DNA from: a virus
IMG/VR virus record: IMGVR_UViG_3300045541_000137
Span: 1 to 21,109 of that record
Direction: 5' to 3' (one strand)
DNA: 21,109 bases
Below the pieces are notes generated by a model. It did not search any database and was not told where the DNA came from. It worked only from the letters and a program-made list of their open reading frames with translations. Every line of letters begins with the position of its first letter. Positions within the stretch are counted from its first letter, which is position 1. Of the stretch, positions 10,195-21,109 are shown in pieces. The position numbers and the translations under genes are program-made.

Positions 10195-10728
10195 TTAAGC
10201 GTCAGCGAACGGAGTGACAACAGACCCAGAGCCGAGCAGCACGCCTTGCACGAGGTATTCGAGCGAAGACAACGCGGTGATGGTGATGACCGAGCCAACG
10301 GCGCCGCCTGTGGTGCTGCCGTCAAGGTTGATGACGTCGTTGGACGCAGCAGGGGCGAATCCAATGGTTGCGCCAGAAGAGTCCGTGTCCACCACCAGCA
10401 AAGAGCCGATAAATTTGTCGGTGCCGTCAGTCTTGATGGCCACAGCAGTCGCTGCGGTATCAACCACGATGGTGTAGGTGGTGCCGATGTTGTTCAGCGT
10501 GTTAGGGTCAGAGCCGGGGCCGGATGTCACCGGATCAGCCGTGGCGATGATCGCCGGCAGCGTCAGAATCAGCGTCGCGTCGTTGGTGCGGATCACCTTG
10601 CCAGCGTGAGCGGCAACGGTCAGGGAGAGCGTATTGGTGCCGTTAACGACGTTAACGACAGAGCCGGGGCCTTGGGCGTAGAAGCCGTTCAAGGAGCGGA
10701 CCGGACCTTGGAAAGTGGTGGTAGGCAT
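10195..10728 (-). CDS. Beta-rich head/decoration-type structural protein, 177 aa
   Basis: The start at ATG 10728-10726 (MPTTTFQGPVRSLNGFYAQG) is preferred. It overlaps the TAA of the homing-endonuclease gene by 1 nt (TAATG) and has AAAGGA upstream; an in-frame extension to 10791 would lie inside that gene. The protein has small-residue-rich strands: SVVNVVNGTNTLSLTVAAHA, GKVIRTNDATLILTLPAI, a middle with TYTIVVDTAATAVAIKTDG, and an end LSSLEYLVQGVLLGSGSVVT. Such proteins, with LTxAxHAGKxIxxxxAxxxLTLPA, are common in virion gene clusters of environmental phages. A capsid-surface or fibre-base role is inferred. Alternatives cannot be separated by sequence alone. Confidence 0.75.
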   Translation of the reverse strand: MPTTTFQGPVRSLNGFYAQGPGSVVNVVNGTNTLSLTVAAHAGKVIRTNDATLILTLPAIIATADPVTSGPGSDPNTLNNIGTTYTIVVDTAATAVAIKTDGTDKFIGSLLVVDTDSSGATIGFAPAASNDVINLDGSTTGGAVGSVITITALSSLEYLVQGVLLGSGSVVTPFADA

Positions 10729-11318
10729 TAAAGCATTCCTTTCAAATGAACATACTTGAGCGCCAATTTTCTTGCCGAACTGGTACAACACCCAACTTGT
10801 CGACCGCGCTCAGCGTACGACAGATGGTCATTTTCTACCAAAAACTTGATCTTTGCCCGGTAATTCGCGTCCGAGAAATATCTTCGCAACTGAGCATCCG
10901 ATAGGCGTTTTCTAAATTCGGGCTCAGCGTAATCAAAAACCGTTGCCCGTCGCCCTTCGCTAATGCGTTTGCGCACTTCGTCGGAATGCGTTTTATTCCG
11001 CATCGGGGCTTTGGAAAAATCAGCAATGTTGTAGGCTACCCGCTCGTCAAAAAACGCTTCGCCATTCAAAAACGCTTCTTCGATTACGTCCAAGTCAGAA
11101 ACGTTTTCGCAAATAACTTCTATCGAAGCAACAAAACTGTCGGCCCCATCTCGGTTATAAGTGCGCTGCAACTTAATGTTTGGGTGCTTTTGCCAACGTA
11201 AAAGTCGAAAATGCTCTCTAAGCCGTTTGTGCAAATTCTGGGATTGCCCTACATAGCACTTGCCTGAGCGCACATGAACGATCTTATAAATGCCCGCGAG
11301 TTTTGTGCTGTATGGCAT
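10728..11318 (-). CDS. Free-standing GIY-YIG homing endonuclease, 196 aa
   Basis: The N-terminus has the GIY-YIG core: AGIYKIVHVRSGKCYVGQSQ (GIY at about residues 9-11, YVG at about 22-24), followed by the conserved Arg in NLHKRLREH. The catalytic Glu is probably in the VIEEAFL segment at about residues 78-82. The middle carries KTHSDEVRKRISEGRR, a NUMOD3-like DNA-binding repeat, and the C-terminal RGRQVGCCTSSARKLALKYV looks like a helix-turn-helix-type recognition segment. These enzymes nick or cut DNA at a homing site to spread their own gene. It is AT-richer than its neighbours and has its own promoter (11358-11386). It sits between the capsid terminator and the next virion gene, with no visible intron. 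Confidence 0.88.
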   Translation of the reverse strand: MPYSTKLAGIYKIVHVRSGKCYVGQSQNLHKRLREHFRLLRWQKHPNIKLQRTYNRDGADSFVASIEVICENVSDLDVIEEAFLNGEAFFDERVAYNIADFSKAPMRNKTHSDEVRKRISEGRRATVFDYAEPEFRKRLSDAQLRRYFSDANYRAKIKFLVENDHLSYAERGRQVGCCTSSARKLALKYVHLKGML

Positions 11319-14460: not shown

Positions 14461-14699
14461 TCCTTACCTTGCAGTTTGCTTTCGAGCTCGTGAATACGGT
14501 CTCTCAAATACGAAATGTAGTGATCTTGCTCGGCAGACCGCTTTTTGAAAATGCGCTCCATCTCGCGGACTCTTAAAATCAGGGCTTGGGCCTGCCCTTG
14601 CATGCGAGCCATCTCGTACAGAAAAAACTCGTCTGTCGTGCCGTCGCAGGTTACGGACACCGTATCGCTGGGCGGGTCCCACTTCATATCCATGCTCAT
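14457..14699 (-). CDS. Small coiled-coil protein of head-assembly cluster, 80 aa
   Basis: The product is MSMDMKWDPPSDTVSVTCDG, then DEFFLYEMARMQGQAQALIL and a long heptad-rich helix (RVREMERIFKKRSAEQDHYI, SYLRDRIHELESKLQGKE). The N-terminal part is extended, the C-terminal 55 residues predicted coiled coil. Starts and stops overlap both neighbours by 4 nt (ATGA), so expression is coupled to the GroES-like and scaffold genes. The role is unknown; an assembly cofactor interacting with the scaffold is a guess from shape and position. The internal ATG at 14693 is an alternative start. Confidence 0.68.
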   Translation of the reverse strand: MSMDMKWDPPSDTVSVTCDGTTDEFFLYEMARMQGQAQALILRVREMERIFKKRSAEQDHYISYLRDRIHELESKLQGKE

Positions 14700-15061
14700 G
14701 GCCGGCTGATGCCGCGTGGGTCAGTGACAACGGCTTCAATGCTGTCGTCAGACATGAGGCGGTACTCCACCCCCCGGAATGTGAACCGTGTGCCGCTGTT
14801 GCTGCGGAACATCACGTAGTCACCTGCGTGACACCACGGCCCATGCGGAAACCGGTCCGTGTCTTTGTATGCCTGCGGCCCCATGTCGAGCACCAGCCCA
14901 ATGGTCGACAGCACTTTTTCGTAGTGAACCGTCTTGGCGTCTTTGACGATGCCTGATTCGTAGGTTTCTTCGACCTGTGGCAGGGCGATCAGCAGCATGT
15001 AACCAACGGGTTTTGGCAGTTGGTTTTCGATTTCTGCTTCGGTGTATTCCGGTTCAGTCAT
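14696..15061 (-). CDS. GroES-like co-chaperonin-type protein, 121 aa
   Basis: The start chosen is the ATG at 15061 (MTEPEYTEAEIENQLPKPVG), which overlaps the previous stop by 8 nt (ATGACTGA); an earlier ATG at 15088 would add nine residues. Next come YMLLIALPQVEETYESGIVK, a segment ending in VLDMGPQAYKDTDRFP, and HAGDYVMFRSNSGTRFTFRG, then MSDDSIEAVVTDP. This follows the order of the GroES/Cpn10 fold: N-terminal strand, flexible mobile loop at about residues 30-45, central VxxxGxxxY, and GDxVxFxxxxGxxFxxxGxEYxLMxDDxIxAVV near the end. Phage co-chaperonins such as T4 gp31 replace host GroES to fold capsid protein. Position beside portal, scaffold and capsid fits. The canonical GroES IVL mobile-loop tripeptide is not evident. 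Confidence 0.75.
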   Translation of the reverse strand: MTEPEYTEAEIENQLPKPVGYMLLIALPQVEETYESGIVKDAKTVHYEKVLSTIGLVLDMGPQAYKDTDRFPHGPWCHAGDYVMFRSNSGTRFTFRGVEYRLMSDDSIEAVVTDPRGISRP

Positions 15062-15251
15062 TGTCTTGGCCCATGTAAGTCTGCTCAAGGTCTGCGATTG
15101 CTGCCATTGCGTGAGTCAGACCCCGGACGACCCCACACAACTCCTTGTACGTGGCGTAGTCGGCTACCTTGCCCTCGGCAAGGTAGTTTTGTACGCGCAA
15201 TATCTCGTCCTCCAGATTGTCTTGGAGGGCGCCAAACACTGTCTTAGCCAA
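15054..15251 (-). CDS. Small helical protein between portal and co-chaperonin, 65 aa
   Basis: The product is MAKTVFGALQDNLEDEILRV, then QNYLAEGKVADYATYKELCG and VVRGLTHAMAAIADLEQTYM ending GQDND. It is all helix and rather acidic. The GxVxDYATYKELCGVVRGLxxA segment is, from memory, recurrent in small phage proteins near portal genes, without known role. It starts directly after the portal stop and overlaps the GroES-like start by 8 nt, so translation is coupled. No catalytic motif. Confidence 0.7.
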   Translation of the reverse strand: MAKTVFGALQDNLEDEILRVQNYLAEGKVADYATYKELCGVVRGLTHAMAAIADLEQTYMGQDND

Positions 15252-17738: not shown

Positions 17739-17997
17739 TTTTAATCCTTGCTCGATTTGTTGTGGGGTCGTAGGCGAACGCAGAGGCGGGCTTGCCCGTG
17801 CCACGGGCAGCTCTGTCCAACGCACGCTCTTCGGCGGTCATCTGGTCGCGGGCTTTGCCCGCAGGTGTAAGTTTTTCCGTGCCGGGGTAGAGGTGCCCTC
17901 GGTCTTGCAGGATGGCAACGGCACGGGCACGGTCGCCTACTTGAGCAGCCAGCCGGTCAATCAACTGGTTACGCCCCATGAACTTCTGGGTAGCCAT
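17722..17997 (-). CDS. Small conserved-type protein between TerL and portal, 91 aa
   Basis: The product is MATQKFMGRNQLIDRLAAQV, then GDRARAVAILQDRGHLYPGT, an acidic/basic helix with GKARDQMTAEERALDRAARG, and SAFAYDPTTNRARIKNGNKR. The MGRNQLIDRLAAQVGDRxxAxxILxxRGH motif is, from memory, common next to terminase/portal genes of environmental phages. The first half looks helix-turn-helix-like and the tail is basic, so DNA binding is possible but not shown. Its ATG shares 1 nt with the TerL stop (TGATG), and it overlaps the portal start. The first amino acids after MATQKF may be the preferred register. Confidence 0.72.
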   Translation of the reverse strand: MATQKFMGRNQLIDRLAAQVGDRARAVAILQDRGHLYPGTEKLTPAGKARDQMTAEERALDRAARGTGKPASAFAYDPTTNRARIKNGNKR

Positions 17998-19499
17998 CAG
18001 TAATAGCCTCCTCGGCGGCGGAACACAGGGTCATTGTCCTCATAATCAGTCCGCAGGGACAGCAGCCCGCCGCGCCGTACGCGGGCCAAGGCCAGTGTGC
18101 AGGCGTCCACCTCGTCGTCATGCTCGGCGGCGGGGAAGGCAATTATTTCTTCTACGGTTTCTTGGGCCCATGAGGTCTCTGGGAACCATACGTGCCCTGC
18201 TGAGAACATATCAGCCACGGCGTTCAGGCGGGCGAGCTTGTCCTGCCCTTTGCCCGGGCTGAAGTCCTGCACAAAGATGCCGCTGCGGCGCATCTCGTCG
18301 ATCAGCGGCTGGCCGCTGGCTTTGGCTTCGACAATCACGGAGTCAGGCTCCCACTCTTGGTACTGTTCCAGCGCCATTTGCTTGAGCTCGGGAAACTCCC
18401 ACTTGCCTTTGACCCGGTTGAGCAAGATGGCGTTGGTGGAATTGTCTTCCTCATGGAAAAACACGCCCCAAGTGTGGCACACGCTAAAGTCCGACCGGGT
18501 TTTGGTGGTGAGTGCAGTGTCATAAGCCTGCACAATGAAGTCGACCTTGGGTGGGGCGTCGGGCTGCCACCACTTGATCCACTCGCGCTTGATAATGGCA
18601 GACTCCGCAGCGGTCGGATTCTGCATGTACTGGGCGTTCCACTGCCACGCCGGCATACTGGCACGGGTGCGCAGCAATGAGTCGAGGCTCCACTGCTCTG
18701 GCCACAGCGACTTAGGGGGATCGGTGGGGTGGTCTTCCGGCTGGTCGGCGTTGAGAATGGCAGGAAACTCGAAAATCTCGTATTGGTCGCCGTCCGGATT
18801 GAGCGCAGCGTCCTTGATAAGGCGTCCGATGAGGTCGCGCTGGTGCCAGCGGGTGTGCAGGATGCAGATTCTGCCGCCCGGCATGAGTCGGGTGCGCAGG
18901 CCGGCACGAAACCACTCGTATGTGGTGTCTAGGGAGTCCGTGTTTCCTGCTTTGATGTCCTGTTCGGACAGCGGATCGTCCACAATAATGAGGTCGGCGC
19001 CGCGCCCGGCCAGCGCACCCCCTGTGCCAATGGCAAAATACTCGCCTCCTTGGCTTGTATTCCACTTTCCGGCAGCTTTAGCGTCGGCGGCGATGGCGGT
19101 CTGGGGGAAAATCTGCCGATATTCGGCAGTTTGCATCAGATTTCGCACTTTCCGAGCCATATCCACGGCCAATTCGGCAGTGTGTGAGGCAACAATTACC
19201 TTATGGTCGGGGTGGCGACCCAAATACCATGCTGGGTAGTAGATGGAAATCATCTGACTCTTGCCCATACGCGGCGCCATGCTCACGGCAACCCGGTCTT
19301 TGTGCCCCTGCTCGACCTGCATCAGCAGGGCGCCGAGCCTTTTGAGGTGCGTGCCGAACTTGTAGGTGGCATCGAGGGCTGCGATAAACGCCAGAAAGTC
19401 ATTCTGGCAGATGGACACGCGCTTGCGGGCCTCCAGCTCATCGAGCAAGGCTAGCAGCTCTGCTTTTTCGAAGTCAGGCAGGTGTTGCAAACGCATCAT
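17997..19499 (-). CDS. terL: Terminase large subunit (TerL), 500 aa
   Basis: This ATP-driven motor cuts concatemeric DNA and pumps it through the portal. The N-terminal ATPase holds a Walker A-type AVSMAPRMGKSQ (about residues 71-82, with G79-K80-S81), Walker B ADLIIVDDP (168-176, D174 and D175) and the coupling segment ICILHTRWHQ (211-220). The C-terminal RNase H-like nuclease shows YDTAL (D327), VIVEAK (E391) and HDDEVDA (D461, D462, D465) as metal-binding acids. Length is typical. It overlaps the small-subunit gene by 26 nt and is followed by a 91-aa gene and the portal, the standard packaging order. Confidence 0.95.
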   Translation of the reverse strand: MMRLQHLPDFEKAELLALLDELEARKRVSICQNDFLAFIAALDATYKFGTHLKRLGALLMQVEQGHKDRVAVSMAPRMGKSQMISIYYPAWYLGRHPDHKVIVASHTAELAVDMARKVRNLMQTAEYRQIFPQTAIAADAKAAGKWNTSQGGEYFAIGTGGALAGRGADLIIVDDPLSEQDIKAGNTDSLDTTYEWFRAGLRTRLMPGGRICILHTRWHQRDLIGRLIKDAALNPDGDQYEIFEFPAILNADQPEDHPTDPPKSLWPEQWSLDSLLRTRASMPAWQWNAQYMQNPTAAESAIIKREWIKWWQPDAPPKVDFIVQAYDTALTTKTRSDFSVCHTWGVFFHEEDNSTNAILLNRVKGKWEFPELKQMALEQYQEWEPDSVIVEAKASGQPLIDEMRRSGIFVQDFSPGKGQDKLARLNAVADMFSAGHVWFPETSWAQETVEEIIAFPAAEHDDEVDACTLALARVRRGGLLSLRTDYEDNDPVFRRRGGYY

Positions 19500-20022
19500 C
19501 TATCGACTCGTAGCGCTGCATGGGGGCCTGTGGGGTAGGCACAACCTCTCCCTCGATAACTTTTGACAGCCGCTCGCGCAGCATCTGCTCCAGCTCTTCG
19601 GTTGGGCGGTGGCGTAGCGTGATCTCGGCTTTTTCTGTGAACAGGCCAACGTCGCTGATCTTGCCGAGCAACTCAAGGGCCTTGATCCGAATCCGCGGGT
19701 CGGTATGGGCAGTCTCAAGCACCAACTTATTGGTGATATAAGTACGCAACTGTGCGGCAGACTCGACGACCTGCTTGTCGTATTCGGACAAGATTGCCTT
19801 CAGATGCACTACCGTCCCCGGGCTTGAGAGGTCCACTTCCGTGGCGTCCTTGGTTCCCATGAACACTGACCGGGCAGTGGCTATGTCCTTGTCGGACACC
19901 TGCACATCAGCTTCCAATTCAGCGAGCGCAGCAAAGGCAGCCTCGACGCGAGCTTGCAAATTCTCGAACGAAGGCTGATAAGTGGCAAACTCAATGTCTG
20001 TATCCACTACGGGCGTATACAT
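19474..20022 (-). CDS. terS: Terminase small subunit, putative, 182 aa
   Basis: The small subunit recognises the viral packaging site and hands DNA to TerL. The start is the ATG at 20022 (MYTPVVDTDIEFATYQPSFE); a TTG at 20028 is an alternative, and neither has a strong ribosome site. Residues 20-50 form a helical region (LQARVEAAFAALAELEADVQ), then come an acidic middle, a helix with VESAAQLRTYITNKLVLETA, and HTDPRIRIKALELLGKISDV with FTEKAEITLRHRPTEELEQM. The DPRxRxKALELLGKxxDVGLFTEK segment is characteristic of small terminases of this group. Immediate overlap with TerL supports the call. The DNA-binding helices cannot be identified with certainty. Confidence 0.8.
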   Translation of the reverse strand: MYTPVVDTDIEFATYQPSFENLQARVEAAFAALAELEADVQVSDKDIATARSVFMGTKDATEVDLSSPGTVVHLKAILSEYDKQVVESAAQLRTYITNKLVLETAHTDPRIRIKALELLGKISDVGLFTEKAEITLRHRPTEELEQMLRERLSKVIEGEVVPTPQAPMQRYESIDDAFATPA

Positions 20023-20050
20023 AGGCAACCCACGGAAGGGCGATAGGCCG

Positions 20051-20078
20051 AATATAGCACGGTTTTACGTACGCGCAA
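20051..20078 (-). promoter_or_regulatory. Candidate leftward promoter of the terminase operon
   Basis: On the minus strand TATATT (20056-20051) is a near-consensus -10 box, with TTGCGC (20078-20073; only 3 of 6) 16 nt upstream. The -35 lies within a perfect inverted repeat, so a regulator bound there could block or replace RNA-polymerase contact. It lies about 30 nt upstream of the terminase start. The weak -35 would suit activator-dependent late expression. Confidence 0.45.
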
Positions 20079-20085
20079 GCGCGTA
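20070..20085. promoter_or_regulatory. Perfect inverted repeat TACGCGC-AA-GCGCGTA (putative operator)
   Basis: Two 7-bp arms, TACGCGC (20070-20076) and GCGCGTA (20079-20085), flank AA. The repeat covers the -35 region of the candidate leftward promoter and abuts the start of the tandem array. The symmetry and 9-bp arm spacing fit a dimeric helix-turn-helix regulator. Confidence 0.5.
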
Positions 20086-20245
20086 TGGGTTGACTTAAGT
20101 GATTGCCGGCTAGATTTAAAATTTTACTGAGTTAACTTAAGTGGTTTTGAGTTTTGCTGGAATTTTACTGAGTTAACTTAAGTGACTGCCGGCCTATTTT
20201 AAATTTTTACTGACTGGCTTGAAATGTACTGAGTCAACTTAAGTG
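20083..20245. repeat. Iteron-like tandem array of a TACTGAGTTAACTTAAGTG element
   Basis: Two identical copies of TACTGAGTTAACTTAAGTG lie at 20125-20143 and 20166-20184. A copy with one change (TACTGAGTCAAC...) lies at 20227-20245, a left-degraded copy at 20083-20101 (GTTGACTTAAGTG intact) and a weak copy at 20208-20226. Copies start 42, 41, 42 and 19 bp apart, so the main period is about four helical turns. A second shared block, GTGAYTGCCGGCY followed by TTTAAA, precedes the second and the weak copies, making the period a true 41-42-bp tandem unit. The surroundings are AT-rich. Candidates are a replication origin, a packaging-recognition site or a multi-site operator. Confidence 0.85.
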
Positions 20246-20312
20246 GAGTGGTGGGATTTGAGAATGTGAAACTCAGCTCCTAGCAGGAGTGCGGAGTCCC
20301 ATCAGCCAGCGC

Positions 20313-20333
20313 GGGGGGTGGGGGTAGGGTGGG
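20313..20333 (+). other. G-quadruplex motif with very short loops
   Basis: Four G-tracts (20313-20318, 20320-20324, 20327-20329, 20331-20333) are separated by loops T, TA and T. One- and two-nucleotide loops generally give very stable parallel quadruplexes. It lies between the tandem array and the rightward promoter on the plus (non-template) strand. Confidence 0.65.
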
Positions 20334-20352
20334 TGCGCGCCAGCCCGAATCG

Positions 20353-20367
20353 GTCTAACCGTTAGAC
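20353..20367. promoter_or_regulatory. Perfect inverted repeat GTCTAAC-C-GTTAGAC (putative operator)
   Basis: Two 7-bp arms with a single central base end 2 bp upstream of the -35 box of the rightward promoter. This is a typical position for an activator or repressor dimer. It has no similarity to the other inverted repeat at 20070-20085, suggesting separate regulators. Confidence 0.55.
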
Positions 20368-20369
20368 TA

Positions 20370-20397
20370 TTGACATTCTGACCAGTGCGCGTATAAT
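20370..20397 (+). promoter_or_regulatory. Consensus sigma70 promoter driving the rightward gene
   Basis: TTGACA (20370-20375) and TATAAT (20392-20397), both exact consensus, are spaced 16 bp. Transcription should start near 20404, giving a leader of about 59 nt. A promoter this close to consensus is typical of early phage genes read by host polymerase immediately after infection. The ribosome site AAGGAG (20451-20456) lies 6 nt before the ATG at 20463. Confidence 0.88.
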
Positions 20398-20462: not shown

Positions 20463-21109
20463 ATGGAAGTTATTAAGACAATGCCCGAACGCTTGCTAGT
20501 GCAGGCCTACGGTGAATTTGCTAACGCTGGCACTGCCGTGGCGCAAGCCGCTGCACGTGCCGACACTGAGCGCACCCGCATCATCCAGCGATTGCTTGAT
20601 TATGCGAAGAGCGAAGGGATCGCGCCCAAGGTCGCCGTATCCGGCATCATGGAAAAGGTGGTGCTGCCATGCACCCTTACCAAAGCCGAACAGCAAGCCG
20701 GGGTTACCCCGTTGGCATCTGGCAAGCTGGCCTATTCGACCGGGCAGGCATACGCGAAGAGCATGGATGTTGCCATGCTTAAGGGCAAGCCCTTTGCACC
20801 CGGTTTATACGCTGCGCACCTGAAAGAGGCGCAGGGTCTGCGCGAAGCGGCGCATGCTGAAAAGCTGGCGAAAGCCGAAGCCGAAGCCGCGGAAAAGGCG
20901 AAGGCCGCGAAGGCCGCTGCAACCAAGGCCGCGAAAAGCAAGAGCGAGGATGCGAAGCTGGCCGCGGCACAGGCAAAGCTTGAGGCGGACAAAGCGCAAG
21001 CGGAAGTGCGCAAGGCCATCGATGCTGCGCCTGTGTCTCAGAAAACCGGAGGCAGGAAAAAGACAAAGGTCGAACCCGCGAAGGTTCTCACGCGTCATGA
21101 AGTGGCACT
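20463..21109 (+). CDS. Early-type Ala/Lys/Glu-rich protein, unknown, 3'-partial
   Basis: The reading frame is open from ATG 20463 to the window edge (215 codons without a stop). The first ~120 residues (MEVIKTMPERLLVQAYGEFA, AQAAARADTERTRIIQRLLD, YAKSEGIAPKVAVSGIMEKV) look folded and helical, with a single visible cysteine (VVLPCTLTK). From about residue 120 the protein becomes a long Ala/Lys/Glu heptad-like region (EKLAKAEAEAAEKAKAAKAA), then a basic stretch (QKTGGRKKTKVEPAK). Such tails often bind nucleic acids or form coiled coils. It is the only rightward gene and has a consensus promoter and good ribosome site, so early expression is likely. I do not recognise the family. Confidence 0.75.
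   Translation, partial: MEVIKTMPERLLVQAYGEFANAGTAVAQAAARADTERTRIIQRLLDYAKSEGIAPKVAVSGIMEKVVLPCTLTKAEQQAGVTPLASGKLAYSTGQAYAKSMDVAMLKGKPFAPGLYAAHLKEAQGLREAAHAEKLAKAEAEAAEKAKAAKAAATKAAKSKSEDAKLAAAQAKLEADKAQAEVRKAIDAAPVSQKTGGRKKTKVEPAKVLTRHEVA

Follow-up and report, generated by a model that had tools for sequence, protein, structure and literature searches.

A repeat array and conserved block beside the terminase genes of an uncultured phage family: a candidate packaging initiation site

The window, that is the whole stretch of DNA analysed, is the 21,109-base virus record IMGVR_UViG_3300045541_000137 (positions 1 to 21,109). Its leftward operon encodes, in order, a protein in the small-terminase position (TerS), the terminase large subunit (TerL), a portal protein, a major capsid protein and a tail fibre. 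TerL (17997-19499, minus strand) matches phrog_38 (E 7e-99) and Pfam Terminase_6N/6C. The TerS gene (19474-20028, minus strand; 182 aa) overlaps that of TerL and lies directly upstream of it, and the ATG at 20022 is probably the conserved start, M3 being invariant in the 55-member family. The identification of TerS is mainly positional, with additional weak similarity to the TerS of HTVC023P (hhalign probability 7%, E 0.005); the predicted structure is of low confidence (pLDDT 67) and gave no fold match in the PDB. Elsewhere in the window, a product that by eye looks like a GIY-YIG homing endonuclease is encoded at 10728-11318 among the structural genes, and a GroES-like co-chaperonin (Pfam Cpn10) at 14696-15088. 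GroES genes are also found near TerL in DSL-LC04 and HTVC023P.

The 434 bp that separate the TerS gene from a rightward gene beginning at 20463 house the repeats considered here. The protein of this rightward gene has no Pfam or PHROG match. Two putative promoters can be read from the intergenic sequence, a leftward TerS/late promoter (TTGCGC-16-TATATT, 20051-20078, minus strand) in a region kept in close relatives, and a rightward early promoter (TTGACA-16-TATAAT, 20370-20397, plus strand). An inverted repeat, TACGCGC-AA-GCGCGTA, at 20070-20085 overlaps the putative late -35. Immediately upstream of the putative early -35 is a perfect palindrome, TCTAACCGTTAGA (20354-20366), which is found in this or a near form at the matching position in many relatives and is a candidate early operator.

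The preliminary description placed an iteron-like array at 20083-20245, next to the terminase operon, and direct repeats, TRF and shuffling confirmed it there, in the interval that separates the leftward TerS/TerL operon from the rightward gene. A 29-nt repeat family has members at 20115, 20156 and 20217, and the two copies of a 45-nt duplication lie at 20086 and 20169. TRF gave the array a period of 41 and a score of 113; dinucleotide shuffling of the intergenic region, repeated 2000 times, gave scores no higher than 67. Exact repeats reach 24 bp in length, and none in 1000 shuffles exceeded 14 bp. Since these three approaches agree, the array is not attributable to chance. On the terminase strand the repeat core reads TAAGTTNACTYAG, and four copies span 20085-20241 on the minus strand: the first, or anchored, copy TAAGTTGACTCAG at 20229-20241, two copies reading TAAGTTAACTCAG at 20168-20180 and 20127-20139 (all three with a 12/12 core match), and a diverged copy TAAGTCAACCCAT at 20085-20097 (9/12), which adjoins the leftward promoter. 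Five copies or partial copies of a 19-bp element, two of them identical, had been proposed. The identical pair is present at 20125-20143 and 20166-20184, but the fifth copy, at 20210-20226, is a degenerate remnant in which 10/17 bases match by eye. The proposed period of 41-42 bp holds for two steps (42 and 41 bp) but not for the third, which is 61 bp (core starts at 20085, 20127, 20168 and 20229). The repeats do lie within the original interval, although the feature itself runs on to about 20336.

Comparison with the seven closest genomes (L004-L010, 77-98% TerS identity; eight genomes with the window) showed that each relative carries three to seven copies of the core, separated by steps of 22, 26, 29, 32, 33, 39, 40, 50, 55, 61 or 76 bp. 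The core therefore survives in close relatives but the 41-42-bp spacing does not (22-76 bp). It had been argued that a step close to four helical turns would place bound proteins on one face of the DNA. This argument fails because spacing differs among the relatives, and no helical phase is evident in the distinct spacings (Rayleigh p about 0.20-0.26). Nor are the finer details of the proposed element retained: in place of the GTTAAC palindrome the relatives read GTTGAC or GTTTAC, and neither CTTAAG nor the TGCCGGC block is conserved. Constraint thus seems to act on the core and not on the period. Free variation in spacing had been regarded in advance as the mark of a neutral tandem duplication, and by that measure the outer copies did arise in part by tandem duplication. 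Genomes whose TerS proteins are 97-98% identical differ in how many copies they carry and in how these are spaced, and the three 26-bp steps of L005 and the four 29-bp steps of L009 look like recently duplicated units. However, the GTTNACTYAG core is retained inside the units while the filler sequence changes, the duplicated site is itself conserved, and its first copy stands at a fixed distance from the conserved block described below. As an account of the array as a whole, neutral duplication of intergenic sequence is considered very improbable.

Comparison with relatives reveals a larger element, reaching 20336, of which the array forms one arm. The other arm is a block whose alignment is common to 72 non-redundant lineages and which reads, on the terminase strand, ACCCCACC, 26-28 bp, GGGACTCC or its reverse complement, 11-16 bp, CTGAG. 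In the window, on the minus strand, these correspond to GCACCCACC at 20328-20336, a variant of a motif that is near-invariant as GACCCCACC in relatives; to the dyad-type motif GGGACTCC at 20293-20300; and to CTGAG at 20272-20276, which ends the block and is near-invariant across the 72-lineage alignment. The middle motif is GGGACTCC in 38/72 lineages and its reverse complement, GGAGTCCC, in 24/72, and the occurrence of both orientations suggests a two-fold symmetric contact. In 8/8 genomes of the window clade, exactly 30 bp separate CTGAG from the first core copy. In more distant lineages +30 to +36 is occupied by another motif that is still site-like, in 37/72 cases against 2.2 in shuffles, the set of site-like motifs having been picked after inspection of the sequences. 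A core that persists through changes in spacing and copy number, beside a rigid block common to 72 lineages, supports the view that this is a functional cis element.

Two other interpretations of the block were considered. A strict G-quadruplex motif lies on the early strand at 20313-20333, within the block; such motifs occur in 23/72 lineages (2.7 in shuffles) and are thus enriched but not universal, and the G-quadruplex was rejected as the feature being conserved. An RNA element was rejected for want of an Rfam match and of support for a consensus fold in the 72-lineage alignment, and the element is taken to act as DNA.

The relatives were collected by a TerS protein scan of viral contigs, which gave 111 relatives, of which 80 were kept; scans with two of the relatives added a few more. 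The isolate collection yielded neither a TerS match nor a DNA match, and the block was not found in those parts of DSL-LC04, HTVC023P and HTVC027P that were searched. A prophage or host source was rejected, a TerL scan of genome contigs having given no relative. When 2.9 million viral contigs were scanned for the block pattern, 74 stretches matched, and with a single exception they lie on contigs of the TerS family; the patterns were built from that family itself, however, and other forms of the block would escape them. The exception, L281, is probably a chance match. The block lies 138-691 bp upstream of TerS wherever this could be measured, and in one orientation.

The upper end of this range bears on whether the array is an operator or activator array governing the leftward late or the rightward early promoter. 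The array does sit between two promoter-like sites, and the last of its copies come within 19-46 bp of the late -35. However, its distance to the promoter is variable, and in about ten lineages some 670-690 bp lie between the element and TerS, and include an HNH-type coding stretch in those that were read. Most of these lineages retain the block and the first repeat together, although in L294 the first site is not recognisable. Since the insertion cuts the element off from the TerS promoter but in most cases leaves block and first repeat side by side, a simple promoter operator is disfavoured and a packaging or replication site fits better. The array cores also gather at one place in each full-length relative rather than being scattered genome-wide, and a dispersed regulon was rejected on this account. 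Control of either promoter is therefore regarded as improbable, and of the three functions first proposed for the array (a replication origin, a TerS packaging site or a regulatory array) it is the first two that stand, as roles of a functional cis element. The HNH-type stretch lies between the block and the TerS promoter in L019, L022, L023, L029, L034 and L050. Among TerS contigs with a nearby end, 17/58 stop at scattered positions no more than 200 bp upstream of TerS (left ends in L020, L025, L030, L032, L033, L051, L052, L056, L057 and others). This excess was rejected as evidence of termini, the positions being scattered, and is attributed to HNH or strain variation. The apparently inverted TerS of L287 looks like a chimeric contig end.

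The live choices are packaging and origin, and packaging is favoured. With moderate confidence, 20085-20336 may be read as a composite site, pac- or cos-like, at which a phage family with genomes of about 64 kb initiates packaging. Under this reading the anchored repeat would be the binding site of TerS, joined in the window clade by the extra tandem copies; the conserved block would serve to place the TerL nuclease; and the GGGACTCC dyad would be a candidate for the point of terminase recognition or cutting. In 13 contigs of 61-66 kb the positions of TerS are scattered and no contig end falls within 1 kb of TerS, a pattern that circular or concatemeric templates might also produce. Genome ends at the block were looked for in full-length contigs and were not seen. 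A cos site with fixed ends is therefore unsupported, while a permuted pac type is compatible with these data. The linkage to TerS cannot in itself separate packaging from origin, because the element of every relative also sits at the junction of the early and late operons.

The main alternative is that the region is a replication origin, in which a phage initiator would recognise the repeats as iterons, host DnaA boxes would add to them or take their place in some lineages, and the block would be the origin core. Three relatives (L012, L014 and L201) carry eight or nine DnaA boxes, with at most one mismatch and in one orientation, that abut the early side of the block. Seven of those in L012 are exact, with no other exact box in its 64-kb genome, and shuffled genomes never gave more than one box within 140 bp. 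The site also lies at a divergent operon junction, the early operon of which carries DNA polymerase A, a helicase and a primase-helicase, and G+C dips locally to 48-49%. Against this, DnaA boxes are absent from the window and from most relatives. No initiator gene was recognised next to the repeats, where an iteron origin would have its Rep gene; Pfam and PHROG comparisons and a scan of early proteins gave no initiator-family match. The helical repeat spacing of iterons is likewise not conserved, as described above. A switch in GC skew had been suggested as a further check, but in full-length relatives there is no clear switch at the site, the skew tracking gene direction instead. On balance an origin is possible but doubtful. 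Origin and packaging functions could also share the site. In the fullest form of this idea, which must be called unlikely, the rigid ACCCCACC-dyad-CTGAG block, the anchored TerS site and an expandable tail would serve also as a DnaA-driven origin in some lineages, an undescribed architecture spread over about 70 uncultured lineages.

If the favoured packaging reading is correct, sequence comparison alone will have located the packaging signal of a family with no member in the isolate collection, and natural variants in repeat number, dyad orientation and insertions would provide probes of DNA recognition by TerS. If the site is an origin, phage-specific repeats and host DnaA boxes alternate at one place, and if it is a dual site, replication and packaging begin there together.

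The element shares features with three known kinds of site. In common with iteron and DnaA-box origins it has direct repeats and a locally lower G+C content, and the three relatives noted above have true DnaA-box arrays beside the block; it differs in that no adjacent initiator gene is recognised, the spacing is not kept and the window is without DnaA boxes. In the pac site of SPP1, direct repeats span the TerS promoters, while the isolated DNA-binding domain of SF6 TerS shows little preference for repeats, and DNA recognition by TerS has been called poorly defined (PMC4737164). Direct repeats likewise lie around the promoter and the start of the small terminase gene here, as in SPP1 and SF6 (PMC4737164), but the present element has in addition a rigid block with a dyad-type motif further upstream. 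Lambda-like cos sites (cosQ-cosN-cosB) have one to three R sites bound by TerS and a highly conserved cosQ (PMC4669245). Their sequences are unrelated to the present element by inspection, the repeats of the latter share one orientation, and fixed genome ends at the block are not seen here. The resemblance lies in the combination of a conserved block, a fixed proximal repeat, variable further repeats and a TerS gene (PMC4669245). The lambda-type layout is present in this respect, with a fixed proximal repeat, at which binding of TerS is predicted, between the block and the TerS gene.
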